Source: Deltaproteobacteria bacterium (GTDB lineage Bacteria > Desulfobacterota > Dissulfuribacteria > Dissulfuribacterales > QOAL01). From it: a stretch of 64,000 nt of DNA. The translations under genes and the position numbers were made by a program. Location: positions 23,916-87,915 of the forward strand of contig JALWNK010000062.1 in assembly GCA_026995935.1 (NCBI GenBank). Direction: 5' to 3'. Positions 43,775-64,000 of the stretch are shown here, in pieces (position 1 is the first letter of the stretch; each line of letters begins with the position of its first letter). The notes beneath the pieces were generated by a model. That model had not been told where the DNA came from. It was given only the letters and a program-made list of their open reading frames with translations, and ran no database searches.

Positions 43775-44000
43775 TGGCCGGGGGAAAAGGTACCAAGTAT
43801 GGGGTAAAAGGCCCCGCTCTTGTGGTCTTGTTATCTTTAAAAAAAAAATAACACGATAATCTCCGAATAATGGCAGCTATATCAGGTGATTATCCTACCG
43901 TCGGCTAAGGTTGGACAATTTTTGTCATATGGTCTAAACTTTGCTTATAGTAAGAGGTCTATTATATGAATTTGCATTCAGTAAAAGAGCAGGAGGAGTC

Positions 44001-44918: not shown

Positions 44919-46916
44919 ATGGACACCAGCAAGAGATTCAAAAAAGGAAACGGTGGATGTCCCAGCATCCAGTGCGAGGCCAACAGAGAGGTCCTTTGCA
45001 ATGAATGTGCATCTGGAGTCATTACTGCTGCCCACAGGGTGCAAAACAGGAGTGTTGAGCCCTGTCTTTTCGGTAAGGGAGGCACATGCTGCAGAAACTG
45101 CAACATGGGCCCATGTCAGATAATAGAAGGCGTCGATACCATGGTGGGCATCTGCGGGGCCGATGCCCCAACAGTTGTGGCAAGGAATTTTGCCAGGATT
45201 GTTGCAGCTGGTGCTGCTGCCCACATGGATCATGGAAGAGGTGTGGCCCTGGCCTTTCTGCAGACGGCCAAGGGAGAGACCCCCTACGAGATAAAGGACG
45301 GGATAAAGCTTAGGGAAACAGCACTCAGGCTGGGCATTGACCCGGGTGAGAAGTCCAAGACGGATCTCGCCATTGAGGTGGGTGAAAAGCTTGTCAGCGA
45401 GTTTGGCCAGCAGGAAGGCGTCATTTCCTTTATAAAAAGAGCACCTCAGCCAAGGCAGGAGCTTTGGCAGAAGCTGGGTGTAACTCCCAGGGGGGTTGAC
45501 CGTGAGGTCGTTGAGATGATGCACAGGACCCACATGGGTGTTGACCAGAACTACGAAAGCATCCTGCTCCAGGCGGCAAGGTGCGCCCTTGCAGACGGCT
45601 GGGGTGCCTCCATGATAGCTACTGAGCTTTCAGACATCATGTTTGGAACTCCGGTGCCCATCCGTACCAAGGTCAACATCGGTGTGCTTAAAAAGGACGA
45701 AGTCAACGTGACCGTGCACGGGCATGAGCCTGTCCTGGCGGAGGCTCTGGCCATGGTGGCCAACGATCCAGAGATCGTTGCCGAGTGCAAGAAGGTGGGT
45801 GCAAAGGGTGTGAACCTGGCAGGTGTGTGTTGTACTGGTAATGAAATCCTCATGAGAAGGGGGCTTCCCATTGCAGGAAGCTTTGTGCAACAGGAAGTTG
45901 TCCTTGCAACAGGCGCTGTGGAGGCCATGGTAGTGGATGTACAGTGCATCATGCAGGGTGTCTCCCCTGTGTCCAAGAATTACCACACCCAGCTCATAAC
46001 CACCTCAGAAAAGGCCAAGATAACCGGTGCAAAGCACGTACAGTTCCATGAAGACAAGGCCCTGGACGTGGCAAAGGAAATCATCAAGATGGCCATTGCC
46101 AAGTTCCCTGAGCGTGGCAAATACTGCATACCAAAACATGAGATGGACGTTGTAGCAGGCTTCAGTCACGAGACAATAAACTACATCCTTGGTGGACGCT
46201 TCCGGGCATCCTACAAACCACTTAACGACAACATTGTTAACGGAAGGATCCGTGGAGTTGCTGCAATAGTTGGCTGTGACAACTACCGCGTCATGGACGA
46301 GGTGCATGTTGAGCTTGCAAAGGAGCTCATCGCAAATGACGTGCTTGTGCTGGTGACGGGATGTGCTGCAACAGGAATAGGAAGGGCCGGGCTCCTTTCC
46401 CCTGAGGCCATGGAGATGGCAGGAGACGGGCTCAAGGAGGTCCTTGAGGCGGTTGGCTGCCCACCGGTTCTCCACATGGGTTCCTGTGTGGATAACAGCA
46501 GGCTTCTTATTGCTGCAACTGAAATGGTACATACTGGAGGTCTTGGTAACGACATTAGCGATATTCCAGTTGTGGGTTGCGCTCCCCAGTGGATGAGTGA
46601 GAAGGCCGTATCCATTGGCCAATACTTTGTCTCAAGCGGGGCCTACGTTGTGTTCGGCCCGAGCTTCCCAACAACTGGCTCACAGGTTGTTACGGACTTT
46701 TGTTTTAAGCAGATGAATGACATCTACGGTGGCTGCTGGGATCTTGCCCAGGGCGCCAACGAGTTCGCAGACAAGATGATCGACAAGATTAATGAAAGAA
46801 GAAAGGCCCTTGGCCTTGACAAGAAGAAAGAGCGCGTGCTCTTTGACATGGCCATGAGGCGTGAGCTTGGCTCTGGCATACCTGGAATGGGTTGCTCACC
46901 AGGAGGCCACAGCTGA
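44919..46916 (+). CDS. cooS: Anaerobic carbon monoxide dehydrogenase catalytic subunit
   Basis: CNECASG..CLFGKGGTCCRNCNMGPCQ cluster motifs; NLAGVCCTGNEILMRRG; VGCDNYRVMDEVHVELAKELIANDVLVLVTGCAATGIGRAGL. Confidence 0.97.
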   Translation: MDTSKRFKKGNGGCPSIQCEANREVLCNECASGVITAAHRVQNRSVEPCLFGKGGTCCRNCNMGPCQIIEGVDTMVGICGADAPTVVARNFARIVAAGAAAHMDHGRGVALAFLQTAKGETPYEIKDGIKLRETALRLGIDPGEKSKTDLAIEVGEKLVSEFGQQEGVISFIKRAPQPRQELWQKLGVTPRGVDREVVEMMHRTHMGVDQNYESILLQAARCALADGWGASMIATELSDIMFGTPVPIRTKVNIGVLKKDEVNVTVHGHEPVLAEALAMVANDPEIVAECKKVGAKGVNLAGVCCTGNEILMRRGLPIAGSFVQQEVVLATGAVEAMVVDVQCIMQGVSPVSKNYHTQLITTSEKAKITGAKHVQFHEDKALDVAKEIIKMAIAKFPERGKYCIPKHEMDVVAGFSHETINYILGGRFRASYKPLNDNIVNGRIRGVAAIVGCDNYRVMDEVHVELAKELIANDVLVLVTGCAATGIGRAGLLSPEAMEMAGDGLKEVLEAVGCPPVLHMGSCVDNSRLLIAATEMVHTGGLGNDISDIPVVGCAPQWMSEKAVSIGQYFVSSGAYVVFGPSFPTTGSQVVTDFCFKQMNDIYGGCWDLAQGANEFADKMIDKINERRKALGLDKKKERVLFDMAMRRELGSGIPGMGCSPGGHS

Positions 46917-46998: not shown

Positions 46999-49900
46999 AT
47001 GGCAAAAAGCGGTTCAATATTGGTCCTTGGAGGAGGCGTAGCTGGTGTTCAGACTGCGCTGGACCTTTCCGAGCTTGGCTATTACGTCTACCTTGTGGAG
47101 AAAAAGGCGTCCATTGGCGGGGTCATGGCCCAGTTGGACAAGACCTTTCCCACAAACGACTGTTCGTTGTGAATTTTAGCTCCCAAGCTTGTTGAGGCCG
47201 GTCGGTCTCCAAATATCGAAATACTCACAAATGCCAAGTTAGAGGCCCTTGAGGGAAAGCCTGGTAGCTTTACTGCAAAGATTTATCAGGAACCCAGATA
47301 CATCAACGATGATCTGTGCACTGCCTGCGGCATGTGCACCATGTACTGTCCAAGGCCCGTGGTGGACACCTACAACGAGCGCCTCGACATTACAAGGGCC
47401 CCTCACATAGATTACGCTCAGGCGATTCCATCCAGCTACTACATTGATGCAAAGGCGTGTCTCAGGGTGAACTATGAGACGTGTAACCTCTGTGCCCAGA
47501 CCTGTACTGCAGGGGCCATAGACTTTACACAGCAGCCAAAGGAACTGGATCTGAGTGTGGGTGCCGTGGTGCTGGCCCCTGGATTTGGCCGGGTCGACGA
47601 AAAGGTGCTGGAGAAGTTCGGTTACGGACGCTATCCGGACGTACTCACTTCCTTTGAGTTTGAAAGGCTGACCTGTGCCTCCGGGCCAAGCGAGGGTCAC
47701 ATTGTTCGTCCTTCCGACAACAAGCCTCCCAAAAGGATCGCCTTTCTCCAGTGCATCGGTTCAAGGGATGAGACCTGCGGAAACGGTTACTGTTCCTCTG
47801 TATGTTGCATGTATGCAATAAAGGAGGCCTCGGTTGCCAAGGAGCACGAGCCTGATCTGGATATATCCATCTTTTTCATGGACGTGCGTACCATGGGAAA
47901 GGGCTTTGACGATGCCAGGAAGCGAGCCCAGGAGAAATACGGCATAAATGTCATACGGGCGAGGGTTCCCAGGGTGGACCAGGTGGATGGAAAGCTTGCC
48001 CTTACTTGGACAACAGGTGACGGGGAGCACCACTCCGGCCTTTTTGACATGGTTGTTCTCTCCGTTGGGCTTGAATCTCCAGAGGATGCCGATCTCATCT
48101 CCCGGGTGGCAGACATAGAACTCAATCATTACAACTTCTGCCGTACCTCAGTGGATGCGCCCCTTGTTTCCTCCAGAAACGGGGTGTTGGTGGCTGGTGC
48201 CTTCCAGGGTCCTAAGGACATCCCTGAATCCGTAACCCAGGCATCGGGTGCAGCTGCCATAGCCTCGGAACTGCTGGCAGATGCACGAAACAGCCAGACC
48301 GTAACGGTGACATATCCGGATGAGGACAAGGCACTTGAGGAGGAAGAGCCGCGCATCGGTGTCTTTGTCTGTCACTGTGGTGTGAATATCGCTGGAGTGG
48401 TGGATGTAAAGGCAGTGCGCGACTACGCAGGCACCCTTCCTGGGGTGGTGCTTTATGAGGACACCCTTTACTCCTGCTCACAGGATGCACTTAAATCAAT
48501 AGCTGAGAAGATTAAGGAGAACAGGCTCAACAGGGTGGTCATATCCGCCTGTTCCCCAAGGACCCACGAGCCGCTCTTCCAGGAGACGCTTCGCTCCATA
48601 GGTCTTAATCCTGCCCTTGTGGAGATGGCCAACATCAGGGACCAGTGTGCATGGGTCCATGCCCAGGAGCCTGAAAAGGCCACGGAGAAGGCCAAGGACC
48701 TTGTTCGTATGGCCGTTGCAAAGGCACGGCTCCTTGCCCCCCTTGAACAGCCCACTGTTGATGTGACACCATCTGCCCTTGTAATCGGTGGAGGCGCTGC
48801 AGGAATGTCTGCGGCCCTTTCCATAGCGGACCAGGGTTACAAGGTGGTGCTCGTGGAAAAGGGAAGATCCCTTGGCGGAAATCTAAAGAGGCTTACCTGG
48901 ACACTGGATGGACAGGACGCCTCCAGGGTCTTAAAAGACATGGTCAAGAAGGTAAAGGCCCACAAGAATATAGAGGTGCTAACCTCGGCTCAGGTGGAGT
49001 CTGTTTCAGGATACGTTGGGAACTTTACCAGCACCATAAGCAAGGGCAGTAAGACCCAGATGATAAACCACGGCGTCATTGTGCTTGCAACTGGCGGCCG
49101 TGAGTACAAGCCAAAGGGCTATGCCTACGGGGACAGCACCAGGGTCGTGACCCAGCTTGAGCTGGAGGAAAAGCTCTCCAGGGGTAAGGGCTTTTTAAGA
49201 AATGCCAAGAATGTTGTGATGATTCAGTGTGTCGGCTCCCGTGGAGACGACATGACCCACTGCAGCCGGCTTTGCTGCACCCAGGCCGTTAAAAACGCCT
49301 TAAAGCTCAAGGAGGCAAAGCCTGAGGTCAACGTCTTTGTATTCTACCGGGACATGAGGACATACGGCTTTTATGAGGATCTCTACAGGGAGGCAAGGAA
49401 GAAGGGTGTAAAGTTCATTCGTTATACCCCCGACAGGAAGCCCGAGGTAATAAAGCTTTCCCGAGGTATAAAGGTAAGGGCCCATGATGAACTAATTGGC
49501 GATGACATAGAGATACCAGCAAGCCTTGTTGTCCTTTCAACAGGAATTGAACCCGGGGATAACGAGGAGCTTTCAAAGATTATCAAGGCACCCCTTACCT
49601 CGGATGGATTCTTCCTTGAGGCCCACGCAAAGCTCAGGCCTGTGGAGGTGGCCGTTGACGGTGTGTACCTTTGCGGACTTGCCCACGGACCCAAGAGCCT
49701 TGAGGAGTCGGTGGCACAGGCCAAGGCGGCCGCAGCCAAGGCAACCATTCCCCTTGCCAAGGGAAAGGTGGCTGTTGCCCCCATTGTATCAAAGGTAAAT
49801 CAGGACCTTTGCATAGGCTGCGGTATCTGCGAAAGCCTCTGTCCCTTCAACGCCATAACCCTCGAAAAGGTTGGAAAGAGGAAAAAGGCTCACACCATCA

Positions 49901-50034
49901 CGGCCTCTTGCAAGGGTTGTGGTATCTGTGCCTCCCACTGTCCCACCATTGCCATATCCATGGGGGGCTTTACGGATGAGGCCATCATGGCCCAGATCCA
50001 TGCCTTTTCGCCAGAAGGATGCGAGGAGGAATAG
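46999..50034 (+). CDS. hdrA: Tandem-HdrA heterodisulfide reductase subunit A-like selenoprotein (Sec at TGA 47170-47172)
   Basis: ATG 46999 ..[43 protein letters not shown]..; second FAD module [31 protein letters not shown]-terminal ferredoxin domain. Frame is continuous across the single TGA. Confidence 0.93.
47170..47212 (+). promoter_or_regulatory. bSECIS-like hairpin of hdrA
   Basis: TTGAGGCC-GGTC-GGTCTCCAA (47192-47212) with one bulged C; loop about 30 nt from the TGA. Confidence 0.55.
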
Positions 50035-50037
50035 GGT

Positions 50038-50841
50038 ATGGCGCAGGAAAACGTTTTGGAAAAGGAGAACGAGATGGCCCAGGAGGGTTTTGAACCGAGG
50101 ATATTGGGTTTTTTCTGCCACTGGTGCTGTTACGCTGCTGCAGATTCAGCCGGTGTTTCAAGATACCAGTACCCCCCGAACGTGCGTGTCATAAGGGTCA
50201 TGTGCACAGGCAGGATAGACACACGTTTTATCCTTGAGGCCTTCAGGTGCGGAGCAGACGGGGTCTTTACCGGCGGCTGACACCTCGGCGAATGTCATTA
50301 CCAGTCTGGTAATTACGAGGCAATGATAGTGGCAGAAACCTGCAAGCAGTTCCTTGCAGACTGCGGAATCAACCCTGACCGTCTTACCTTAGAGTGGGCA
50401 TCGGCAGCAGAGGCGCCCCGTTTTGTGGAACTGATTACCGGTTACGTAAACAGAATCAAGGAAAAGGGCGAGACAGGCACTGCGGAAGGGGAGGCCGACT
50501 CCGCCACCATCAGGCGCAGGCTCAAGGCTGCAGTCAAGGCTGCAGAGGCAAGAAAGCCAAGGAGTGCCCTTGGCATGCTGGCCAAGAAGCTTCACAAAGA
50601 TGGAGAATATACAAAGGAGGCCATAGCCAAGGGTGTTTCCTCAAAGATCGTTCCTGCCCTCCGTGCAGAAAGGATTAAGGAGGAGATAATGCTTCTCCTT
50701 AAAGAGGGGCCCATGGATATTGATGCACTCTGTAGTGCCCTTTCTGCAAAGAAAGAGGAGGTGGAAAAGCCCCTTTCACAGCTGCAGAAAAAGGGTGTTG
50801 TTGAGGAGCAGGACGGAAAGTTCAAACTGAAAGGCAAATAA
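50038..50841 (+). CDS. mvhD: MvhD-family hydrogenase iron-sulfur subunit selenoprotein (Sec at TGA 50278-50280) with C-terminal winged-helix-like extension
   Basis: [69 protein letters not shown]; same frame on both sides of the TGA. Confidence 0.93.
50278..50320 (+). promoter_or_regulatory. bSECIS-like hairpin of mvhD
   Basis: TGA then outer stem CCTCG(50283-50287)/CGAGG(50316-50320), inner perfect stem ATTACC(50297-50302)-AGTCT-GGTAAT(50308-50313). Confidence 0.75.
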
Positions 50842-50863: not shown

Positions 50864-51415
50864 ATGACTGTTCAAGCCGCTAAACTAAACAGTGATTTTA
50901 TCAAGGACATTGCTGCCCATGAAGGGTGTGAAACCGCGGCCATGTGTTTTTCATGTGGCTCCTGTAGTGGCGTATGTCCTGTAGAAAAGGTGGTGGATGA
51001 TTTTGATCCGCGAAAGATCGTCCATATGGTCGGTCTTGGCATGGAGGATTCCTTGATTTCTGGCGAGACCATCTGGGCATGTTCTCAGTGTCAGAGCTGC
51101 ATACCCGTATGTCCTCAGAATGTTAGGTGCGCAGACATCATAAAGGCCCTAAGGGACGAGGCCCTTAAGCGAAAGAGCGTTGACCGGGAGCGTCTTAAGG
51201 CTCTTGGTCTCTTTGCAGTGGTGGATCCTGGAAAGTGCGTGGCCTGTCTCACCTGCGTAAGGCTTTGCCCCTTTGGGGCACCCTCCATGACCGGGGAGGG
51301 TTATGCCGTTATAGAACCGGGTCTTTGCCATGCCTGTGGAATATGTGTGCTTGACTGTCCGGCCCAGGCGATTTCGCTTGCGCCGTCACTTGAGGCAAAG
51401 GGGGCACAACAATGA
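50864..51415 (+). CDS. HdrC-like subunit fused to a 2[4Fe-4S] ferredoxin domain
   Basis: CFSCGSCSGVCPVEKVV..ACSQCQSCIPVCPQNV, then CVACLTCVRLCPFGAP..CHACGICVLDCPAQAI. Confidence 0.88.
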   Translation: MTVQAAKLNSDFIKDIAAHEGCETAAMCFSCGSCSGVCPVEKVVDDFDPRKIVHMVGLGMEDSLISGETIWACSQCQSCIPVCPQNVRCADIIKALRDEALKRKSVDRERLKALGLFAVVDPGKCVACLTCVRLCPFGAPSMTGEGYAVIEPGLCHACGICVLDCPAQAISLAPSLEAKGAQQ

Positions 51416-51777
51416 GCAAGATAAAGGGCTTTTGCTGTAACTATACCCTGAGCGTTGAGGTGGATGCTCTCAAAGAGGAGGGCCTTGTGCCAGAGGATCT
51501 TGAGATAGAAAGGCTCCCGTGCACCGGGAGGCTCGAGGTTCCTGAGATACTGGATGCCTTCACTAAGGGGGCTGAGGCGGTCTTTGTTGTAGGATGCCAG
51601 GTGGATAAGTGTCATAATCTTTCAGGCAGTTACCGCGCATCCAAAAGGGTTAAGTATGCAAAGAAGATCCTTGAGGAACTTGATATGAATCCAGACCTTG
51701 TGGAGATGTTCTTTGCAGGGCGAGGAGAGACAGAGCCAGTGGTAGAGGCTGCTAGAACCATGGCATCCAGGGCCTAG
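51412..51777 (+). CDS. Second MvhD-family iron-sulfur subunit (Cys form)
   Basis: IKGFCCNYTLSVEVDALKEEG..IERLPCTGRLEVPEILDAFTKGAEAVFVVGCQVDKCHNLSGSYRASKRV. Confidence 0.88.
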   Translation: MSKIKGFCCNYTLSVEVDALKEEGLVPEDLEIERLPCTGRLEVPEILDAFTKGAEAVFVVGCQVDKCHNLSGSYRASKRVKYAKKILEELDMNPDLVEMFFAGRGETEPVVEAARTMASRA

Positions 51778-51829: not shown

Positions 51830-52498
51830 ATGATAATAGCAGAAAGAAAACCCATGAAGGAGCTGCTGGAGATGGTTTCCGACGTAAAGAGGCTCCTCAT
51901 TGTAGGCTGCCGCGGTTGTGTGGCAGTCTGCTCTGCAGGAGGCGACAAGGAGGTCAGCATCCTTTCAGCGGCATTGAGGCTTGGAGTTAAGAGGGCCGGT
52001 GGTGAAATAGATATCCATGAGGATACCCTGGTTCGTCAGTGTGATCCAGAATACATCGAACCATTGAATGATAAGGGGGCAAAGTACGACGCCGTCCTTT
52101 CAATGGCGTGCGGCGTTGGGGTCAATTTTGTTGCTGACAGGTGCCCGGACGTAAACGTGCTGCCTGCGCTAAACACCACCTTTTACGGAGCAAATCTTTC
52201 AAGCGGTGAGTGGAAAGAGATGTGTGCGGGCTGTGGGGCCTGCGTCCTTCACCTGACAGGAGGTCTTTGCCCTGTGGCCAGGTGTGCAAAAAGCCTATCC
52301 AATGGCCCGTGCGGCGGTTCCCAAGGAGGAAGATGTGAGATCAATCCGGATGTGGACTGTATATGGCAACAGATTTACGACAAACTATCCAGCATGAACC
52401 GGAAAGAGGAGCTCAGGCAGATTATGCCCATCAGGGACTGGACTACTGCTGGACATGGGGGACCACGTCGGAGAATAAGGGAGGACTTGCTACCGTGA
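51830..52498 (+). CDS. metV: MetV, methylene-THF reductase Fe-S partner subunit
   Basis: LLIVGCRGCVAVCSAGGDKEV..CAGCGACVLHLTGGLCPVARCAKSLSNGPCGGSQGGRCEINPDVDCIWQQIYDKL. Confidence 0.92.
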   Translation: MIIAERKPMKELLEMVSDVKRLLIVGCRGCVAVCSAGGDKEVSILSAALRLGVKRAGGEIDIHEDTLVRQCDPEYIEPLNDKGAKYDAVLSMACGVGVNFVADRCPDVNVLPALNTTFYGANLSSGEWKEMCAGCGACVLHLTGGLCPVARCAKSLSNGPCGGSQGGRCEINPDVDCIWQQIYDKLSSMNRKEELRQIMPIRDWTTAGHGGPRRRIREDLLP

Positions 52499-55400
52499 TG
52501 TCTGGAAGCAATCTTGAAAACGTACTTCGCTCTGGAACCTTTGCAGTCACAGGCGAACTGGGGCCGCCCAAAAGCGGCGATATGGAAGTTGTCAGGAAAA
52601 AGGCCAGGATTCTCAAGGGCCATGTGGATGCCGTAAACATTACGGACTGTCAGACGGCCATAGTGCGGATGTCGAGCCTTACAGCAGGTCTTATTGCCCT
52701 GTCTGAAGGGGTGGAGCCAGTTATGCAGATGACCTGCCGTGATCGTAACAGAATCGGTATGCAGGCGGACATTCTTGGCGCCTCTGCCCTTGGAATAAAG
52801 AACCTCCTGTGTCTTACAGGCGATCATCAGAAGTTTGGAAATCATCCCCAGGCCAAGGGTGTCTTTGATATGGACTCCATCCAGCTCCTCCAGATGGTCA
52901 AGGGCATGAGGGATGAAAAACGGTTTCAGTGCGGCGAGGAGATCAAGAAGGCAGAGCCAAGACTCTTCCTGGGGTGTGCGGCAAATCCCTTTGCGGATCC
53001 CTTTGAATTCAGACCAGTCAGGCTTGCAAAGAAGGTGGAGGCAGGGGCAGACTTTGTCCAGACCCAGATCATATATAATGTTGAAAAGTTCAAGAAGTTC
53101 ATGGAAATTGCCAGGGACCTTGGTATCCATGAAAAGTGCTTCATACTTGCAGGTGTGACACCTCCAAAGTCCCTGGGTATGGCCAGGTACATGAAGAAGT
53201 TCGTTCCAGGGCTGGATGTTACAGACGATGTAATTCAACGTCTTCAGGATGCCAAGGATCAGAAGGAAGAGGGCATTGACATCTGTGTAGACATTATCAA
53301 GCAGGTTCAGGACATACCAGGGGTTTCGGGTGTCCATGTAATGGCCATTGAGTGGGAGGAGGCCGTACCGGAGATAGTAAAGAGGGCAGGACTTTCACAA
53401 AGGCCGGAACCAAAGGGCATAGAGCCTGTCCTTTCGAGCAGTGGTGCCATTGACGAGGCAGTTGAAAAGGCCCGCAGGGAGGCCAGGCTTGAGCTTGAGG
53501 GCGAGCTTAAAAAGGTAAAGGCCGAGGCAGATGCCTCAAGAGATCTGCTGGCAAAGGAGAAGGAGAAAGTTGCCTCTGAGATTTCAGGTCTCAAGAAGCA
53601 GGTAGAGGAGGCAAAGAGCATGGTAAGCCGCAAGGAGGCTGAAATACAAAAACTTACTGAGGAATTACAGAAGGCAAAAGAGGCGGTTTCAGGCACGGCT
53701 GCCCCGGCGCCTGTAGCCTCTAAGGAGGCAGTGGCCGGAGTACAGGAGGCCACCGTTACGGTTTCTTCTGGTGCCTTGAGTGCCAGGGAACAGCAGGTGC
53801 TCAGTTCGCTAAACAAGGGGCTTGTTGCCCTTAAGGAGGTCCTGGGCCTGAATGACGCACAGTTTGAGGCTATGAGGCGGTTTCTTGAGGCGGAGTTCAT
53901 GCTCCAGCTTGGAACTGCAGTAAGGGAAACTGCACAGGTTACGGAGGCTCCCCAGGTACAGGCTGAGGCGCCACCTGCTGCGGTTACACCGGCCCCAGCT
54001 GCGGAACCAGTGGAGGAAGAACGGCCAGCCGAAGAAGAAAAGCCCCAAAGGCCCAAGGAAGTTGTGAATCTGGTTGCCCAGGGTAACGTTGCCCTTCATG
54101 CCAAGGATTTCAAGAAGGCGGTTGAGCTTTTTAAGAAGGCCCTTGAGATTTCCCCCGAGGATGAGAAGGCAAAGGAGGGGCTTGAAGAGGCAAGAAAGGC
54201 CCTTTTAGAGGAAAAAGAGGCAGCAGATAAGGCAGTGAAAATCAAGGAGGTGGAAGGTCTTCCTCCCTGCCCCGACGAGATAGACCCGGATGAGTGGAAG
54301 CGCAAGTGGGTAGTACGTTTTACAGCCCGCGGAAACGTTGCCCTTATGAAGGGGGACTTTGAAACTGCAAAGAAGGAGTTTCAGAAGGCCCTTGATCTTG
54401 ATCCAGATTATGAAAAGGCAAAGGATGGCCTTGCCAGGGCTGAAAAGGGCGAGGACATATTCATACCTGACGTGAAGCCAGGCGAGGTTGAGGCTGCAGC
54501 TCCTGCCCCTGAAGAGAAAAAGATAGAGAAAGAGGCTGCAGAGGCAAAAGAGGAAAAGCCTGCTAAAGAGGAAGCTGTCCAGGAAAAGCCGGCTCCGCCT
54601 GAAGAGGCAAAGGAAGAGGCAGTAAAAGAGGCCCCAAAGCCCAAGGCAAAGGTTGAGATAAGTGCTCCGGCCGGAGAAGGCGTCGGAGAGCTGGAGGTGG
54701 CTCCGCTTCCAAAGGATGAGCCACCACTGGAAGAACGCGCCAAGGGTATTCCTGAGGAGGTTTACAAGGAGCCGTGCACCGGAGTTATACAGAGCGTGAC
54801 TATAGGCGATGGTGACAAGGCCATTACAGTGGGAGGAGAGACTGCCCTTCCCTTCCACGCCTTTGAAGGTGAAATCCCAAATCTTCCTAGGACGGCCTTT
54901 GAGGTGCTTGACTCCCCACCAGAGGAATGGCCGGAAGTGCTGCTAAAGTACTATTCCGACGTTGTAAACGATTCGGCGGCCTGGGCCAGGAAGTGTGTCA
55001 ACGAGTTTGGTGCCCAGGCAATATGCCTGTCTCTTGATTCAACAGATCCCAATGGTGCCAACGTATCATCTGCAGATGCCGCCCAGGTGGCCAAAAAGGT
55101 CATTGAGGCCGTGGATGTTCCAATAATCCTGTGGGGCTGTGGTAATGCGGAAAAGGATACTGAGACCCTGCGTGAGATAACAGGACTCGTCGAAAACAGA
55201 AACGTTTGCATTGGTCCTTTGACCGACGCCAACTACCGCACCCTGGGGGCAACTGCCATGGCATTTCAGTATCCTGTTGTGGCCTCTACCCCCATTGATG
55301 TTAACCTTGCAAAACAGCTGAATATTCTACTTGAAAATCTGGGTGTTCACCTGGACCATATCCTTATGGATCCGTCTATTGGTGCTGTGGGATACGGGCT

Positions 55401-55683
55401 GGAGTATACCTATTCCGTAATGGAGCGAATAAGGCTTGCCGCACTTACCCAGCAGGACGAGAAACTGTCACCGCCCATTATATGTAACCTTGGAAGAGAG
55501 GTGTGGAAGGCAAAGGAAACAAGGCTTCCAACTGATGCCGAGCTTGGCGACCAGGAGAAAAGGGGCGTGCTCATGGAGGCAATTACCGCATCTACCCTTC
55601 TTCTTGCAGGAGGAGAGCTGACTGTTATGCGGCATCCAAAGGCCATAAACCTTACAAACGTCCTGGTTGAAGGGATGTTGTAA
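52498..55683 (+). CDS. MetF - coiled coil - TPR - acidic linker - AcsD/CdhD (corrinoid Fe-S protein small subunit) fusion
   Basis: TGATG overlap with metV. MetF: FAVTGELGPPKSGDMEVVRKKARILKGHVDAVNITD..; CdhD: VYKEPCTGVIQSVTIG..VGGETALPFHAFEGEIPNLPRTAFEVLD..ILMDPSIGAVGYGLEYTYSVMERIRLAAL. One uninterrupted 1061-aa frame. Confidence 0.93.
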   Translation: MSGSNLENVLRSGTFAVTGELGPPKSGDMEVVRKKARILKGHVDAVNITDCQTAIVRMSSLTAGLIALSEGVEPVMQMTCRDRNRIGMQADILGASALGIKNLLCLTGDHQKFGNHPQAKGVFDMDSIQLLQMVKGMRDEKRFQCGEEIKKAEPRLFLGCAANPFADPFEFRPVRLAKKVEAGADFVQTQIIYNVEKFKKFMEIARDLGIHEKCFILAGVTPPKSLGMARYMKKFVPGLDVTDDVIQRLQDAKDQKEEGIDICVDIIKQVQDIPGVSGVHVMAIEWEEAVPEIVKRAGLSQRPEPKGIEPVLSSSGAIDEAVEKARREARLELEGELKKVKAEADASRDLLAKEKEKVASEISGLKKQVEEAKSMVSRKEAEIQKLTEELQKAKEAVSGTAAPAPVASKEAVAGVQEATVTVSSGALSAREQQVLSSLNKGLVALKEVLGLNDAQFEAMRRFLEAEFMLQLGTAVRETAQVTEAPQVQAEAPPAAVTPAPAAEPVEEERPAEEEKPQRPKEVVNLVAQGNVALHAKDFKKAVELFKKALEISPEDEKAKEGLEEARKALLEEKEAADKAVKIKEVEGLPPCPDEIDPDEWKRKWVVRFTARGNVALMKGDFETAKKEFQKALDLDPDYEKAKDGLARAEKGEDIFIPDVKPGEVEAAAPAPEEKKIEKEAAEAKEEKPAKEEAVQEKPAPPEEAKEEAVKEAPKPKAKVEISAPAGEGVGELEVAPLPKDEPPLEERAKGIPEEVYKEPCTGVIQSVTIGDGDKAITVGGETALPFHAFEGEIPNLPRTAFEVLDSPPEEWPEVLLKYYSDVVNDSAAWARKCVNEFGAQAICLSLDSTDPNGANVSSADAAQVAKKVIEAVDVPIILWGCGNAEKDTETLREITGLVENRNVCIGPLTDANYRTLGATAMAFQYPVVASTPIDVNLAKQLNILLENLGVHLDHILMDPSIGAVGYGLEYTYSVMERIRLAALTQQDEKLSPPIICNLGREVWKAKETRLPTDAELGDQEKRGVLMEAITASTLLLAGGELTVMRHPKAINLTNVLVEGML

Positions 55684-55738: not shown

Positions 55739-57946
55739 ATGTCCAAGATTATCTGTTCAGCAGCAATAAGAGGTGCCCACAAGATTGTGGATATGGCCGA
55801 AGAAAAGTACGAGGAGGCCCTAAAAAAGTATGGGCCTGAGCAGGAGGTGGCCTTTCCAAACACGGCCTACTACCTGCCAATCATATACAGCATGCTTGGC
55901 GCGCCGGTTAAGCAGCTTGGGGATATGAAAGAGATATTCCAGGAGTGTAGGAAGCTTCTTCCTCCCCCTGTAAGCGACCATGTTTGGCTGCCATATCTTG
56001 CGCCAGCACTTGACGCCGGTATGGCAACCTTCTTTGCTGAGGAGATGTTTGAGGCCATAAGATACATAGATGACCCACAGTTTTATACCAAGACAGAGGA
56101 CCCCCCTGCCAGTGGCAACTACTGGCTTGGGGCCGCCGACGATATCATCTTCAGGAAAAGGGGTGTGGAGTTCGTTGACGGAACGGCCCCAGGCTTTGCT
56201 GCGATTCTTGGTTCACCCTCTGATGCTGAAGAGGCAGAGAAGATAGCAACGGAGCTCCAGGAGAAGAACCTCTACGTCTTTCTACACGATCAGACAGATG
56301 GAATCTATTTTCCTGATCAGCTTCTTAAGAGAAACATCCAGATTGGATGGTCTACAAGGCTGGTTCCCTTTGGGCCCACCTATTCTTCTGCAGTTTTCGC
56401 CATTGGCTTTGCATGCCGTGTTGCCCTGGCCTTTGGTGGAATTCAGCCAGGTGATTACAAGGCAAATCTCCTGTACAACAAGGATCGTACATTTGCCTTT
56501 GTTATAGCATTTGGGCCTGTTTCCGATGAATGGTACGCCAATGCGGCAGGCGCCATAAACTGGGGCTTCCCAACCATATCAGATTGGGATATCCCTGAGG
56601 TGCTTCCCACTGGAATATGTACCTACGAGCACGTAGTAAGCAAGGTGCCCCATGACGAGATCGTGCAGAAGGCCATTGAGGTCAGGGGTCTTAAGGTTAC
56701 GGTTTCAAAGATCGACATCCCTGTATCCTATGGCCCTGCATTTGAGGGTGAACGAGTACGTAAGGACGATCTCTATCTGGAATGCGGTGGCGGCCGTACC
56801 CTGGGCGTTGAGGTCCTGGTGTCAAAGGATATGGACGAGGTGGAAGACGGCAAGGTGATAGTGGAAGGTCCAGAGATGGACGAAGTTGAAGAAGGTGCCA
56901 AGCTTCCCCTTGCCATATTGGTTGAGGTTGCAGGAAGGCAGATGCAGCCAGACTTTGAGCCCATACTTGAGCGCCAGTTCCACCACCTTATCAATTATGC
57001 CCAGGGCATAATGCACATTGGCCAGAGAAACATCATGTGGCTTAGGGTTGGTAAGAGCGCCATTGAAAAAGGGTTCAAGTTCGAGCACATTGGCAGAATA
57101 CTTCACGGCAAGCTTCACCAGGATTTTGGCGCCATTGTGGACAAGGTCCAGGTAAAGATCTACACAGAGGAAGAGAAGGTCAAAGAGGTGCTTGAGCTTG
57201 CCAAGCAGGTTTACGCTGCCAGGGATGAACGTCTTGGCTCCATGACAGATGAAAGCGAGGAGATATTCTACTCCTGCACTTTGTGTCAGTCCTTTGCACC
57301 GAGCCATGTGTGCGTCATCACACCTGAGCGCGTTGGAATGTGCGGCGCCTATAACTGGCTAGATGGAAAGGCCTCCTACGAGATAAACCCCACGGGTCCA
57401 AACCAGCCCATTGAAAAGGGCAAGTGCATTGACGAAAAGCTTGGCCAGTGGGAGGGTATAAACGAGTTCGTGAAACAGGCATCCCGTGGAAAGGTGGAAA
57501 GGGTCAGCGCCTACTCCCTCATGGTAGACCCAATGACTGCCTGTGGATGCTTTGAGTGTATTGCAACCATGCTTCCTATGTGTAACGGTATCATGATTGT
57601 AAACCGTGACTACATGGGCATGACACCCAGCGGAATGAAGTTTACCACGCTGGCAGGAATGGTTGGTGGCGGCCAGGTTACCCCCGGATTTCTCGGTGTT
57701 TCCAAGCACTACATCTGTTCAAGGAAGTTCATGAATGCAGAAGGGGGGCTTAAGAGGGTGGTCTGGATGCCAAAGATGCTCAAGGAGGAGTTGAGGGAGC
57801 GTCTCCAGGAAAGGGCAGAGGAGATTGGCATCCCCGATCTTCTTGACCTGATAGCAGATGAGGAAGTGGGTGTATCCGAGGACGAGGTCTTGAAGTACCT
57901 GCAGGAAAAGGGTCATCCGGCACTTTCCATGGAAAGCGTTGTTTAA
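55739..57946 (+). CDS. acsB: CO-methylating acetyl-CoA synthase (A-cluster subunit)
   Basis: 735 aa; ICSAAIRGAHKIVDMAEEKYEEALKKYG..YSCTLCQSFAPSHVCVITPERVGMCGAYNWLDGKA..PMTACGCFECIATMLPMCNGIMIVNRD. Confidence 0.97.
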   Translation: MSKIICSAAIRGAHKIVDMAEEKYEEALKKYGPEQEVAFPNTAYYLPIIYSMLGAPVKQLGDMKEIFQECRKLLPPPVSDHVWLPYLAPALDAGMATFFAEEMFEAIRYIDDPQFYTKTEDPPASGNYWLGAADDIIFRKRGVEFVDGTAPGFAAILGSPSDAEEAEKIATELQEKNLYVFLHDQTDGIYFPDQLLKRNIQIGWSTRLVPFGPTYSSAVFAIGFACRVALAFGGIQPGDYKANLLYNKDRTFAFVIAFGPVSDEWYANAAGAINWGFPTISDWDIPEVLPTGICTYEHVVSKVPHDEIVQKAIEVRGLKVTVSKIDIPVSYGPAFEGERVRKDDLYLECGGGRTLGVEVLVSKDMDEVEDGKVIVEGPEMDEVEEGAKLPLAILVEVAGRQMQPDFEPILERQFHHLINYAQGIMHIGQRNIMWLRVGKSAIEKGFKFEHIGRILHGKLHQDFGAIVDKVQVKIYTEEEKVKEVLELAKQVYAARDERLGSMTDESEEIFYSCTLCQSFAPSHVCVITPERVGMCGAYNWLDGKASYEINPTGPNQPIEKGKCIDEKLGQWEGINEFVKQASRGKVERVSAYSLMVDPMTACGCFECIATMLPMCNGIMIVNRDYMGMTPSGMKFTTLAGMVGGGQVTPGFLGVSKHYICSRKFMNAEGGLKRVVWMPKMLKEELRERLQERAEEIGIPDLLDLIADEEVGVSEDEVLKYLQEKGHPALSMESVV

Positions 57947-57961
57947 GAGGAGAAAAGGATC

Positions 57962-59317
57962 ATGGGTCTTACAGGGATAGAAATCCTGAAAATGCTCCCC
58001 AAGAAAAACTGCGGGGAGTGCGGTGTGCCTACGTGTCTGGCCTTTGCCATGAAGGTTGCAGCAGGGCAGGAGGATATTGGTGCATGTCCCTACGTTTCCG
58101 ACGAGGTCAAGGAGAAGGTGGGTGAGGCCAGTGCCCCGCCTATCCGCACCGTTGTCCTTGGTAGTGGGGACCACAAGTTCGAAGTTGGAGGAGAGACCTG
58201 TCTTTACAGGCACGAAAAGCGCTTTGAACATCCAACCGGGCTGGCTGTCCTGGTTACCACACAGATGGATGATGAAGCGGTATCCCAGCGGCTTGCCAGG
58301 TTCAATGCCCTTCGTTACGACAGGGTCGGCGTTGAGTTAAGGGCAGACCTTGTTGCAGTAAAGGACCAGGGCGGGGATGAGGCGGCCTTTAAGGCCCTTG
58401 TGGAAAAGGTCAGGCAGGATTGCCCAGATGCGGCCATCATTCTCATGAGCGAAAATCCCCAGACCATAAAGGGCGGTGCTGAGGTTTGCGGAGAGCACAA
58501 GCCCCTCCTTTACGCAGCCACCCCATCCAATGTGGATGATATGGTTACGGTTGCAAAGGAGACCGAGTGCCCTCTTGCCGTAAAGGGAGCCAATATCGGG
58601 GAGACTGCGGAGCTTTCAGAAAAGATTCAGGGCGAGGGGTTAAAGGATCTCGTTATCGATACTGGCGCAAGGACCATCAAGGCCGTCTTTGAGGATCAGG
58701 TTGTGTGCAGGAGGGCTGCCATAAAGCACAAGTATAAACCTCTGGGTTTTCCCACAATCACCTTTCCGTGCGAGATGACAAAAGATGCCCTTACAGAGGC
58801 CATGTTGACCTCAGTGCTTATTGCAAAGTACGCAGGCATCTGTGTGCTTTCAGATATCCAGGGGGATACGCTCTTTCCACTCCTGCTTGAGCGGCTCAAT
58901 ATCTTCACTGACCCGCAAAGGCCAATGGTTGTCCAGGAGGATATCTACCCAATTAACGGACCTGATGAAAATTCACCGGTTCTCATCACCTGTAACTTTT
59001 CACTCACCTACTTCATCGTTTCTGGTGAAATCGAGGGTTCCAAGGTGCCTGCTTGGCTCCTAATCAAGGACACGGAAGGCCTGTCGGTTCTTACCGCCTG
59101 GGCTGCCGGAAAGTTCAGCGCTGACCTCATTGCCCAGTTTGTCAAAAAGAGCGGCATAGAGGAGAAGGTGAAACACAGGAGCCTGATAATTCCCGGTTAC
59201 CTTGCCTCCATTAAGGGAGAGCTGGAAGAGGAACTTCCCGACTGGAAGATCCAGATCGGGCCTAGGGAGGCAAGCCATCTGCCTCCATATCTGAAGAGCT
59301 GGCAGCCTGAGGGCTGA
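57962..59317 (+). CDS. acsC: Corrinoid iron-sulfur protein large subunit
   Basis: MGLTGIEILKMLPKKNCGECGVPTCLAFAMKVAAGQEDIGACPYVSDEVKEKVGEASAPPIRTV. Confidence 0.96.
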   Translation: MGLTGIEILKMLPKKNCGECGVPTCLAFAMKVAAGQEDIGACPYVSDEVKEKVGEASAPPIRTVVLGSGDHKFEVGGETCLYRHEKRFEHPTGLAVLVTTQMDDEAVSQRLARFNALRYDRVGVELRADLVAVKDQGGDEAAFKALVEKVRQDCPDAAIILMSENPQTIKGGAEVCGEHKPLLYAATPSNVDDMVTVAKETECPLAVKGANIGETAELSEKIQGEGLKDLVIDTGARTIKAVFEDQVVCRRAAIKHKYKPLGFPTITFPCEMTKDALTEAMLTSVLIAKYAGICVLSDIQGDTLFPLLLERLNIFTDPQRPMVVQEDIYPINGPDENSPVLITCNFSLTYFIVSGEIEGSKVPAWLLIKDTEGLSVLTAWAAGKFSADLIAQFVKKSGIEEKVKHRSLIIPGYLASIKGELEEELPDWKIQIGPREASHLPPYLKSWQPEG

Positions 59318-59349: not shown

Positions 59350-60240
59350 ATGTACGTTCAATGTATAGCTGAAAGCATCAACATAATGGGAAAGCGTACA
59401 GGTGGGGCCATGAGGGCCAGGGATCCCAGGCCCATTGTGGAAATGGCCCATGAGGAGGTAGCCTTTGGCGGGGATTACCTTGACCTGAATATCGGGCCTG
59501 CCAGGAAGGACGGAACCGAACTCATGCCGTGGATAGTGCGCGTTGTAGAGGAGGTTACAGACTGTCCGCTCTCTCTTGACACGACAAATGCAGATGCACT
59601 GATAGCTGGTATGAAGGTGGCTAAGAACCCAAAGCAACACGTTATGAACTCCATATCCCTTCAGCCTGAAAGGATGAAGAAACTTATCCCGGTTGCCGCC
59701 GAGACGGGCTGCTATGTGGTGGGGCTCCTGTGGGGGGTAGACGGAATGCCAAGGGATTCCAACGAACGGGCCGCCATGACAGTGGATCTTACAATGGCAA
59801 TGAATGAGGCGGGAATTCCCAATGAAAAGATACTCATAGACCCAATTGCAACTCCCATCACACTGGGTTCCGAGCAGGTCATGAGCGGATTAGAGTTCAT
59901 GGCCATGCTGCCGGATATTGCCCCTGGGGTTAAAAGCACCGTGGGCCTTTCCAATGTCTCAAACGGGGTCGAGGCACACCTTCGTCCCTATCTCAACAGG
60001 GCCTATCTTGCCATGCTCATGAAGGTTGGTATCTGGTCTGCAATAGTTGACGCCTACGACCAGGAACTTATTGAGCTTGCCCACGGGGAGCGTCCGGAAT
60101 TGCTGAAGCTTGTCCATGATATAATGGATGGTAACGAACCTGATCCTTCAACCCTTTCCGACAAGGAAATGGAGTACTACAAGACAACACGGGTTCTCAT
60201 GGGAAAGACCATTTTCTCAGAATCCTGGTTGGAACTTTAA
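59350..60240 (+). CDS. acsE: Methyltetrahydrofolate:corrinoid protein methyltransferase
   Basis: Pterin-binding TIM barrel: DYLDLNIGPARKDG..CPLSLDTTNADALIAGMKVAKNPKQHVMNSISLQPERM..STVGLSNVSNG. Confidence 0.94.
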   Translation: MYVQCIAESINIMGKRTGGAMRARDPRPIVEMAHEEVAFGGDYLDLNIGPARKDGTELMPWIVRVVEEVTDCPLSLDTTNADALIAGMKVAKNPKQHVMNSISLQPERMKKLIPVAAETGCYVVGLLWGVDGMPRDSNERAAMTVDLTMAMNEAGIPNEKILIDPIATPITLGSEQVMSGLEFMAMLPDIAPGVKSTVGLSNVSNGVEAHLRPYLNRAYLAMLMKVGIWSAIVDAYDQELIELAHGERPELLKLVHDIMDGNEPDPSTLSDKEMEYYKTTRVLMGKTIFSESWLEL

Positions 60241-60265: not shown

Positions 60266-60292
60266 AAATGGTGGGTCATTCCCACCATTTTT
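60266..60292 (+). terminator. Intercistronic terminator/attenuator between acsE and fdhA
   Basis: AAATGGTGGG-TCATT-CCCACCATTT-TT, perfect 10-bp stem. Confidence 0.65.
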
Positions 60293-60309
60293 GTATGGAA
60301 AGGTTGCAA

Positions 60310-63300
60310 ATGGCTGAATCAATCAAAATCACGTTAGACGGCAAGGAGATCAAGGCTCAAAAGGGCCAGACGATCCTTCAGGCTGCAAGGGAGGCGGGAG
60401 TCAAGATTCCCAGCCTTTGTCATCTTGAAGGAGGAAGTGACTCTGAACGGCCCTGTCTCCTGTGCATGGTTGAGGTGGAAGGAACAGGCAGGGTCAGGGC
60501 ATGTAATACCTTGGCTGAGGATGGACAGGTCATTACGGTCCACTCCAAGGACCTGGATGCCTTCAGAAAGGAGAGGCTCACAAATCTTGCGGAGAGCCAC
60601 TACGGCGACTGCCGGGCTCCTTGTAACCTTACCTGCCCAGGCGGCATAAACGTCCAGGGATATGTAAACCTCATAGCCAAGGGTGAATACAAGGCCGCCC
60701 TCATGCTCATAAAGGAGAAAAATCCCTTGCCCATCTCCGTTGGCAGGGTCTGCCCCAGGTTTTGCGAAACGAGGTGCAGGAGGATACTTCTTGATGAGCC
60801 CATAGCCATAAACCACTTGAAGCGTTTTGTTGCAGATTATGCCTCTGAGACAGGTATCAGGGATGATGTTGTAGGGAAACCTACAGGGAAGAAGGTGGCC
60901 ATAATTGGTGGAGGCCCTGCAGGCCTTTCCTGTGCCTACTTCCTTAGAAAGCAGGGGCATGACGTCACCATTTTTGAGGCAGAGGAGAAGCTAGGAGGGC
61001 TATTAAGGTACGGCATACCTGGTTATAAGCTCCCCAATAAGGAGGTGGACAAAGAGGTCCAAAATATCCTGAACCTTGGTGTCCACGTAAAACTTCAAAA
61101 AAGATGGGGACAGGATTTTACCATCCAGGACCTTAAAGATCAGGGCTACGGGGCGGTCTTCATCGCCACGGGGCTGTCAAGGCAGAAAAAGCTTGAGATA
61201 GAGGGAGCAGAGCTTGCCATTTCTGGCCTCAAGTTTCTGAAAGAAGTGAACAAGGGCCGCGCCCCTTCGGTTGGAGAACAGGTCCTGGTGGTTGGAGGCG
61301 GTGATATAGCGGTTGACGCTGCAAGAAGCGCAAGGCGACTTGGCGCAAGAAGTGTAACTGTCATATACCCTCGTTCCAGGGTTGAGCTTCCAGCCCATCA
61401 GAGGGAGATTGAGGAGGCGGAAAAGGAAGGGGTCCAGTTCTTTCTCATGGCAACTCCACTCAAAATCAGCGAAGAAGATGATAAACTAAAGGTGGAGATG
61501 GCCCGTACAATCCTGGATGAGCCTGATGAAAGGGGAATCAGGCACCCAATTCCCATGCCTGGTTCGCGTCTTTACTGGACAGGAGATACCATCATTTCAG
61601 CATTGGGCCAGGAGGGGGATCCAACATTTCAAAGCTTTGGTGAGATCGAGGCCTCCATAAAGCTTACTCCAAGAAAGACCATTAAGACCCATCCAAGCAC
61701 CATGAAGACCAGTGTGGATGGCATTTTCGCAGGAGGCGATGCAGCTACCGGTTCAAGGACGGTTATACAGGCCGTTGCCGGAGGAAGAAGGGCTGCCGAA
61801 TCCATCCACGAATATCTCATGAAGGAGAAGGCCGGGATAGCCGAGGCGAGATTCAACTTCACCAAGGGAAAGCGCTTTGAAGATGTGGACATGCACAATT
61901 TCGACGGCTATTCCATTCAACTAAACGAGGTGATGCCTGCCAGGCCTCCTGAAAGACGGATAGGCGACTTTGACGAGGCTAACCTTGGTTTTTCAGAAGA
62001 GATGGCGGTTCGCGAGGCCAAAAGGTGCCTGCAGTGCGGATGCCTTGGGCTTTCAAAGTGTACCTACAGGGAGCTTTGCGTTGATTACAAGGTGAAGGCA
62101 AATGTTGCCCGCACAAGGCTTAAATATCCTGTTGACAGGAGCCATCCCTTTATTGTCATTGATGCAAATAAATGCATAGGCTGCACAAGATGCCTGAGAA
62201 GCTGTAAATATGGCGCCCTGGAACTGGAAGTCAAATGGGATGACAAGGCCGAGGTGATCCAGGATGTATCCATCAGGCTTAATGAAAAATGCGTATCATG
62301 CGGGGCCTGTGTAGACGCCTGCCCAACAGGAACCCTTTCCAAGAATGATCTTGTGATCCCGCTTTTTCCAGAACAGGTAACAAAGGTAAAGAGCGTTTGT
62401 ACCTACTGCGGCACAGGTTGCAGTCTGGACGTGGTCTCCAAGTATGGGGCCATTCTGGAGGTGAAAGCGGATTCGTCAAGACCGCCAAACTGGGGGCAGC
62501 TCTGTGTCAAGGGCAGGTTCGGTTATACCTTTTACAGGCATGAGGAGAGGCTCAGAAGGCCCCTTGTAAGGGACAACATTGATGAGCCCTTCAGGGAAGT
62601 GGACTGGGACGAGGCCCTTCGGGTGCTGGCTGCCCGTCTAAATGCCATTCGGGACAACTTCGGCTCTGATAGCGTTGGAGTCCTTGCCTCATCAAGGTGC
62701 ACCAACGAAGAGAACTACCTTCTCCAGAAGCTTGCCCGTGCGGCCTGGGGCACAAATAACGTGGATAACTGTGCCCGGGTCTGACACGCTCCCTCTGTCA
62801 GCGGTCTGCTGGCAACACTGGGAAGCGGGGCAGCAACTACACCCTTCGAGCAGATAATAGGCACGGACTGTCTCCTTATCTGCGGCTCAAACACCACAGA
62901 GGCACATCCCATAGTTGGGCTAAAGGTGAAAGAGGCGGCAAGGACAGGAACAGACCTCATAGTCATAGATCCAAGACGAACAGAGGTTGCAGCCATTGCC
63001 GAAGAACAGCCAGGGGGCCTGTGGCTGAGGGTGGCGCCTGGAGGAAACATCCCCCTTCTTAACTCCATCTTGTACTGCATCATTGAAGAGGGGCTTATAA
63101 ACGAGGATTTCATATCAAAGCGTACCGAGCAGTTTGAGGCCATAAGGAAACATGTAAAGGATTACCCGCCTGAAAAGGTGTATCAGATAACGGATGTTGA
63201 CCCGGAACTTGTGAGGGCTGCTGCGCGGAAGTATGCCTCCTCCAAAAATTCCCTTATCCTCTATGGTCTTGGAGTTGCCGAGCACAAGGGAGGCACAGCC

Positions 63301-64000
63301 GGGGTGATCGCCCTGGCAAATCTTGTTCTGGCAACGGGTCAGGTGGGCAAGCCCCACAGCGGCATAAATCCGCTAAGGGGTCAGAACAACGTTCAGGGCG
63401 CCTGTGACATGGGAACCTTGCCTTACACCTTCCCGGGTTACCAGCCAACGGATGATCCAAAGGTGCTGGAGAAATTTGCCAGTGCCTGGGGAGTGAACAG
63501 CCTTCCGGTGTCAGACGGGCTTCTTGAGCCCCAGATGTACGATGCCGCCCTTGAGGGCCGGTTCAAGGCACTTTACTGTGTCGGTTATGATCCTGCCCAG
63601 ACCCAGTCCAACATTGGCAAGGTGCACGAGGCGCTAAAGGCCATGGATCTTGTGGTGGTTCAGGACCTATTCCTCACGGAAACGGCCAGGTTTGCCCATG
63701 TTGTCCTGCCATCTGCCTGTTTCTATGAAAAGGACGGCACCTTTACAAGTGGTGAGCGCCGGGTAAGACGTGTCACCAAGGTAATAGATCCGCCGGGGAA
63801 GGCAAAGGCAGATTGGGAGATCATTTGTCTCGTTTCCCAGGCCACTGGATACCCCATGTTTTATACTGGGCCCGAGCAGATAATGGCAGAGATAGCAAGG
63901 GTGACTCCGGCCTATGCAGGTATCAGCTACGACAGGCTTGGGGACAAGGGAATGGTCTGGCCATGTCCCTCTTCCGACCATCCTGGAACTCCCCTTCTCC
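60310..64000 (+). CDS. fdhA: Formate dehydrogenase catalytic selenoprotein with N-terminal [2Fe-2S] and GltD-like flavoprotein modules (Sec at TGA 62782-62784); truncated by the window end
   Basis: [2Fe-2S] N-terminus; GltD-like KVAIIGGGPAGLSCAYFLRKQGHDVTIFEA; 2[4Fe-4S]; CTYCGTGCSLDV; NNVDNCARV-U-HAPSVSGLLATLGSGAATTPFEQIIGTDCLLICGSNTTEAHP continues to the window edge. Confidence 0.94.
62782..62813 (+). promoter_or_regulatory. bSECIS hairpin of fdhA
   Basis: GTCAGC(62797-62802)-GGTCT-GCTGGC(62808-62813), 6-bp stem with GGUCU apical loop, as in the E. coli fdhF SECIS. Confidence 0.8.

Follow-up and report, generated by a model that had tools for sequence, protein, structure and literature searches.

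The window analysed here, a stretch of 64,000 nucleotides of contig JALWNK010000062.1 (assembly GCA_026995935.1) from a bacterium of the order Dissulfuribacterales, carries a gene in which the methylene-tetrahydrofolate (THF) reductase MetF is fused to AcsD/CdhD, the small subunit of the corrinoid iron-sulfur protein (CFeSP) of the Wood-Ljungdahl pathway. The fusion is real, conserved and of single origin, it is apparently undescribed so far, and there are strong grounds for regarding its product as a protein with two functions. In this pathway, MetFV makes methyl-THF, AcsE moves the methyl group to the cobalt of CFeSP (AcsC and AcsD), and CFeSP delivers it to AcsB. The known MetFs of acetogens are stand-alone proteins.

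Translation of window positions 52498-55683 on the plus strand gives a single open frame of 1061 uninterrupted codons followed by a stop, as had been claimed in an earlier note made from the sequence. The predicted mass of the protein is 115 kDa. It is made up of two barrels, a MetF (methylene-THF reductase, MTHFR) barrel and a CdhD barrel, connected by a long linker that includes two tetratricopeptide repeat (TPR) units:

52498-53397, plus strand: MetF TIM barrel, residues 1-300 (PF02219; MTHFR fold match; invariant columns)
53440-53688, plus strand: single long charged helix or coiled coil, residues 315-397 (AlphaFold model; ratio of nonsynonymous to synonymous substitution rates, dN/dS)
53782-53907, plus strand: conserved helical hairpin, residues 429-470, SAREQQVLSSLNKGLVALKEVLGLNDAQFEAMRRFLEAEFML (AlphaFold model; hhalign)
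54055-54228, plus strand: TPR unit 1, residues 520-577 (Pfam; AlphaFold model)
54286-54447, plus strand: TPR unit 2, residues 597-650, with a conserved PPCPxExxxEEW motif before it (Pfam; alignment; model)
54448-54726, plus strand: disordered acidic Ala/Glu/Pro/Lys linker, residues 651-743 (predicted local distance difference test, pLDDT, about 30; composition)
54727-54756, plus strand: conserved LxERA motif leading into the CdhD domain, with L744 and R747 invariant (alignment)
54757-55680, plus strand: AcsD/CdhD CFeSP small-subunit domain, residues 754-1061 (PF03599, NF003376 and the 2h9a_B fold)

Both end domains are complete, as the same note had held. Pfam places MTHFR at residues 6-298 and TPR stretches at about 529-555 and 610-638; its CdhD match starts at residue 767, and the NCBIfam AcsD-type match extends to 754-1060. 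The MetF barrel is full-length, with PF02219 covering positions 2-287 of the 287 in the model (E 1.5e-39, above cut-off), while PF03599 and the subfamily model NF003376 both score above cut-off on the AcsD/CdhD barrel. The CdhD domain reaches 307.8 bits against WLP_AcsD, below the 430-bit cut-off of what is a narrow exception model and not the family definition for AcsD. It is about 50% identical to 2h9a_B and 4c1n_B, the C. hydrogenoformans protein being aligned over 297 residues. In an alignment of 42 members of the fused family, E20, D109, Q188 and Q190 of the MetF domain are invariant, and all 42 preserve the catalytic-motif residues of MetF as well as long invariant stretches of CdhD. By motif correspondence, we take E20, D109 and Q190 to be Glu28, Asp120 and Gln183 of the E. 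coli enzyme.

An AlphaFold model of the fusion, built on 42 relatives, has a mean pLDDT of 71 and a pTM of 0.43, at which the placement of the domains relative to each other carries no meaning. It shows, in order, the first barrel, an 83-residue helix (315-397), the hairpin (429-470), the TPR units, each of three helices (520-577 and 597-650), and the second barrel, with disordered stretches between these parts. By Foldseek, the second barrel has the fold of the C. hydrogenoformans CFeSP small subunit (2h9a_B, TMt 0.94), and the first, part of which is modelled at low confidence, resembles MTHFRs (TMt up to about 0.79). The coiled coil and the two TPRs proposed in the earlier note are confirmed; the hairpin that lies between them had been overlooked.

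The architecture is not the one-off that the earlier note implied, but is clade-wide, with about a hundred further loci. Within the Desulfobacterota, the phylum from which the genomes were sampled, the two domains occur in one frame at 101 loci, although duplicate copies of some genomes make the number of independent genomes smaller. This count draws on the 80 loci returned by a scan of genome contigs, taken together with those of a genome search. The fusion is found throughout the window's order (60 related genomes), where the exceptions are mostly genes cut by contig ends, with a few genomes lacking it, and extends to the Desulfobulbales and to Thermodesulfobacteriales-type families. Carriers include Desulfocapsa, Desulfurivibrionaceae, Caldimicrobium and Seep-SRB2 strain E20, which has been assigned to the Dissulfuribacterales (PMC10553843). 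Among 296 genomes of the phylum, families f39, f71, f72, f81 and f95 have fused frames, as does the window's order; for the other families with matches, the matches listed show MetF and CdhD apart, at identities of about 60% and about 50-57%, respectively. CdhD stands at its own site, unjoined to MetF, in 27 of 28 unfused genomes checked, and plasmid records gave separate MTHFR matches and no fusion. Two public metagenome-assembled genomes titled Desulfobulbus propionicus (L049 and L062) have a TPR-type fusion that groups with the window's order, and their titles may be wrong. The Rnf and Qrc complexes are reported to be absent from the Desulfobulbales, Thermodesulfobacteriales and Dissulfuribacterales (PMC10553843), the same three orders in which the fusion is found.

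The fused forms make up one clade in each domain tree (SH-aLRT 99 for CdhD and 98 for MetF, by a quick method), which points to one fusion. A single event in a common ancestor, or one fusion with an early transfer, would explain the data. Several independent fusions are not supported, since each half forms a single clade. In genome G138 (L160, 8680-10824, minus strand), one TAA separates metF from a cdhD that keeps the linker and has a start site after the TAA. In the CdhD tree, G138 falls within the Thermodesulfobacteria-type part of the fused clade (SH-aLRT 93, again by the quick method). Its split therefore looks like a later event than the fusion, and the nesting disfavours it as the ancestral state.

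The linker is the most variable part of the protein. In the window's order it measures 369-460 amino acids (aa), against 223-302 in the Desulfobulbales types, and most Thermodesulfobacteria types have 205-258; the shortest, counted from the sequence of L161, is about 105 aa. TPRs score in 28 of 42 members, all of the window's type; none of the 13 Desulfobulbales- and Thermodesulfobacteria-type members tested has them. Since they are limited to the window's order, the TPRs are a later addition and not the core of the fusion, and their candidacy as an essential part is rejected because other orders do without them. The suggestion in the earlier note that the TPRs scaffold MetF, AcsC, AcsE and AcsB is therefore speculative; the short linker of L161 and the split of L160 indicate that neither the TPRs nor the covalent link is strictly required.

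The hairpin is more widely shared. It is homologous between the window's order and the Desulfobulbales fusion (hhalign 99%, E 6e-18), the similarity being weak in the Thermodesulfobacteria types (hhalign 35%). In seven genomes, no protein other than the fusion contains it at a convincing E-value. Unfused AcsD proteins of other Desulfobacterota, with C-terminal extensions of 130-220 aa, many of them Ala/Glu/Lys-rich, were seen at L154, L184, L186-L188, L192-L194, L198, L200, L201, L203 and L204; a shared origin of these tails and the fusion hairpin has no support (hhalign 0.2-4%).

Selection on the different segments was gauged by dN/dS against near relatives, many distant comparisons being saturated and not estimable. 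Where it can be estimated, dN/dS is about 0.02-0.2 for the hairpin and TPRs and 0.12-0.27 for the coiled coil and C-terminal linker; the values for MetF and CdhD are 0.02-0.03 and 0-0.06. The hairpin and TPRs are, judging by these ratios, under purifying selection, and the pattern indicates that the linker is translated in frame and is partly under strong constraint.

The fusion lies in a cluster of Wood-Ljungdahl genes, between metV and acsB-acsC-acsE:

at 41959, plus strand: fhs, upstream of the fusion
at 43941, plus strand: folD, upstream of the fusion (sequence reading)
44919-46916, plus strand: cooS/acsA, catalytic subunit of CO dehydrogenase (CODH) (TIGR01702 over cut-off)
47332-50034, plus strand: HdrA-like flavoprotein (sequence reading; conserved position beside other Hdr genes)
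50038-50841, plus strand: MvhD-like protein with an in-frame TGA, probably selenocysteine (GVFTGG-U-HLGECHY; selB in the genome)
50864-51415, plus strand: HdrC-like 4Fe-4S protein (Pfam/NCBIfam)
51412-51777, plus strand: MvhD-like protein (PF02662)
51830-52498, plus strand: metV, MTHFR partner subunit (PF12225)
55739-57946, plus strand: acsB, acetyl-CoA synthase (ACS) (NF040764 over cut-off)
57962-59317, plus strand: acsC, CFeSP large subunit and partner of the CdhD domain (NF003195 over cut-off)
59350-60240, plus strand: acsE, methyl-THF:CFeSP methyltransferase (PF00809; best NCBIfam NF005719, below its cut-off)
60268-63999, plus strand: formate dehydrogenase frame with an in-frame TGA, downstream of acsE

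The TGA stop of metV and the ATG of the fusion overlap as TGATG, which suggests translational coupling of MetV with MetF. The genome has no cdhD besides the fusion, so that the CODH/ACS of this cluster must rely on the fused CdhD domain if the pathway runs. The proposal of the earlier note, that the formation of methyl-THF is physically linked to the corrinoid acceptor, is a fair reading of this arrangement. Stand-alone MetV is present in 16 of 16 genomes tested, as is AcsE, which is joined to AcsC in one of them (G138). The acs clusters of the Desulfobulbales loci L067, L080, L085, L094 and L163 are without metV and acsE, and in the Desulfobulbales-type genomes tested these genes are located elsewhere. 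The in-frame TGA of the formate dehydrogenase frame (NNVDNCARV-U-HAPSVSGL) also probably encodes selenocysteine, and selB scores over its cut-off in the genome. At 39476-41149, a frame with a TTG start contains a partial NiFe hydrogenase small subunit (Oxidored_q6) followed by the large subunit; this could represent a fusion, or a gene for the small subunit that has been damaged.

Several known systems resemble parts of this arrangement. MetFV-HdrABC-MvhD of Moorella thermoacetica and MetFV of Clostridium ljungdahlii have the MetF barrel, an adjacent separate MetV, and HdrA/HdrC/MvhD-like genes alongside; here, MetF is in addition covalently joined to AcsD. The known AcsD/CdhD proteins (2h9a_B, 4djd_D and 9fzy_E) share the whole barrel and the nearby acsC and acsE, to which the fusion adds an N-terminal extension of about 750 residues with MetF, helix, hairpin and TPRs. 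The bifunctional homocysteine methyltransferase/MTHFR (NF006396) likewise fuses an MTHFR barrel to a user of the methyl group, but its partner is homocysteine methyltransferase; a frame of about that size (C67, 633 aa) is one of two other MTHFR-domain frames in the genome, the second being 529 aa.

Two further fusions were seen among the loci: AcsC::AcsE, at L107 (12941-15271, plus strand) and L160 (3961-6363, minus strand), and AcsD::CODH, a protein of 1150 aa at L211 (5925-9374, minus strand), whose contig also carries another acsD that is unfused (L212, 2931-4265). They, too, join successive partners in methyl or carbonyl transfer via Ala/Glu/Lys/Pro linkers, but differ from MetF-AcsD in having other partners and no MetF and in being found in few genomes. 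Together, they indicate that the pathway has been repeatedly stitched together in the Desulfobacterota.

The most probable reading, held with some reserve, is that the gene encodes one bifunctional polypeptide in which MetF is flexibly tethered to the CFeSP small subunit, aiding co-assembly and a local hand-over of the methyl group. The N-terminal barrel would be the MetF of a MetFV-type reductase, paired with the MetV encoded by the gene that overlaps the fusion upstream, and the adjacent HdrA/HdrC/MvhD proteins would probably supply its electrons. The C-terminal barrel would be the CFeSP small subunit, which would pair with AcsC and, together with it, bind the corrinoid. The linker of about 450 residues, with its helix, hairpin, TPRs and disorder, would act as a flexible tether with docking surfaces. 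Such a tether would hold the site that makes methyl-THF near the AcsE-CFeSP-AcsB machinery that uses it, set a 1:1 ratio of MetF to AcsD, and leave CFeSP free to move between AcsE and AcsB. Both domains would then be active in a single uncleaved chain that forms a complex with MetV and AcsC, and the tether may speed methyl transfer or channelling.

Some observations weigh against this view. MetV and AcsE are unfused, so channelling would still need other contacts; linker length ranges from about 105 to 460 aa; and the split in G138 means that the covalent link can be lost and is dispensable in that lineage. A separate linker-CdhD product could also arise from an in-frame ATG at 53620, which has a good Shine-Dalgarno sequence before it. 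Given that G138 has lost the covalent link, that the linker varies in length and that the TPRs are lineage-specific, we take this link to be helpful but not essential.

A possible, though doubtful, alternative is that the fusion merely fixes stoichiometry or co-assembly, the stop between neighbouring genes having been lost, with a mostly passive linker and no better hand-over. The adjacent but covalently unlinked metF and cdhD of G138, the relaxed outer linker segments (dN/dS 0.12-0.27) and the fourfold variation in linker length are as expected on this account. However, constraint on the hairpin and TPR segments is strong and the hairpin is kept across two orders, and a passive linker needs neither.

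At the other extreme, the fusion could be a clade-wide covalent metabolon of the methyl branch, in which the hairpin/TPR module would recruit AcsE, AcsC and AcsB and methyl-THF would never be released. This is unlikely, but if true, the independent AcsC::AcsE and AcsD::CODH fusions would reflect the same channelling pressure in low-energy autotrophs.

It is improbable that the MetF and AcsD halves are produced from the frame as separate proteins, through internal initiation, for example at ATG 53620, or through proteolysis of the linker. The Shine-Dalgarno sequence at this ATG and the long, disordered stretches of the model, predicted to be protease-sensitive, would allow it, but a GAGGAG is expected anyway in Glu-rich coding sequence, and the methionine is missing at this position in some relatives. 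Near the CdhD domain, the in-frame starts are GTGs with weak Shine-Dalgarno sequences, none of them good, and keeping one frame through 101 loci would be needless. Chance, or a sequencing or assembly artefact joining two genes, for which no evidence was found, can be rejected with near certainty: the 101 loci come from many different projects and include some in single-contig genomes, and the linker is conserved in frame under purifying selection.

No description of the MetF-AcsD fusion was found in the open-access literature, although the architecture may be listed elsewhere, for example in a domain database, without comment. The words fusion, fused and MetF are absent from the text of a 2026 study of the pathway in Desulfobacterota, and the genome papers on Dissulfurimicrobium and Thermosulfurimonas include MTHFR genes in their lists but do not comment on them. 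The paper on the epibiont Ca. Desulfobulbus rimicarensis lists acsABC but not acsD (PMC7117923).

The fusion may account for genome reports in these groups that list no acsD, as automated annotation can mask one of its two functions. It also provides a clean marker uniting these sulfur-cycling bacteria of the Dissulfuribacterales, Desulfobulbales and Thermodesulfobacteriales-type families. The enzymes of the Wood-Ljungdahl pathway could act separately or as a coupled assembly. A natural covalent link between the last reductase of the methyl branch and the corrinoid carrier, present across three orders and re-split once, allows these possibilities to be tested by comparing fused, cut and naturally split forms.

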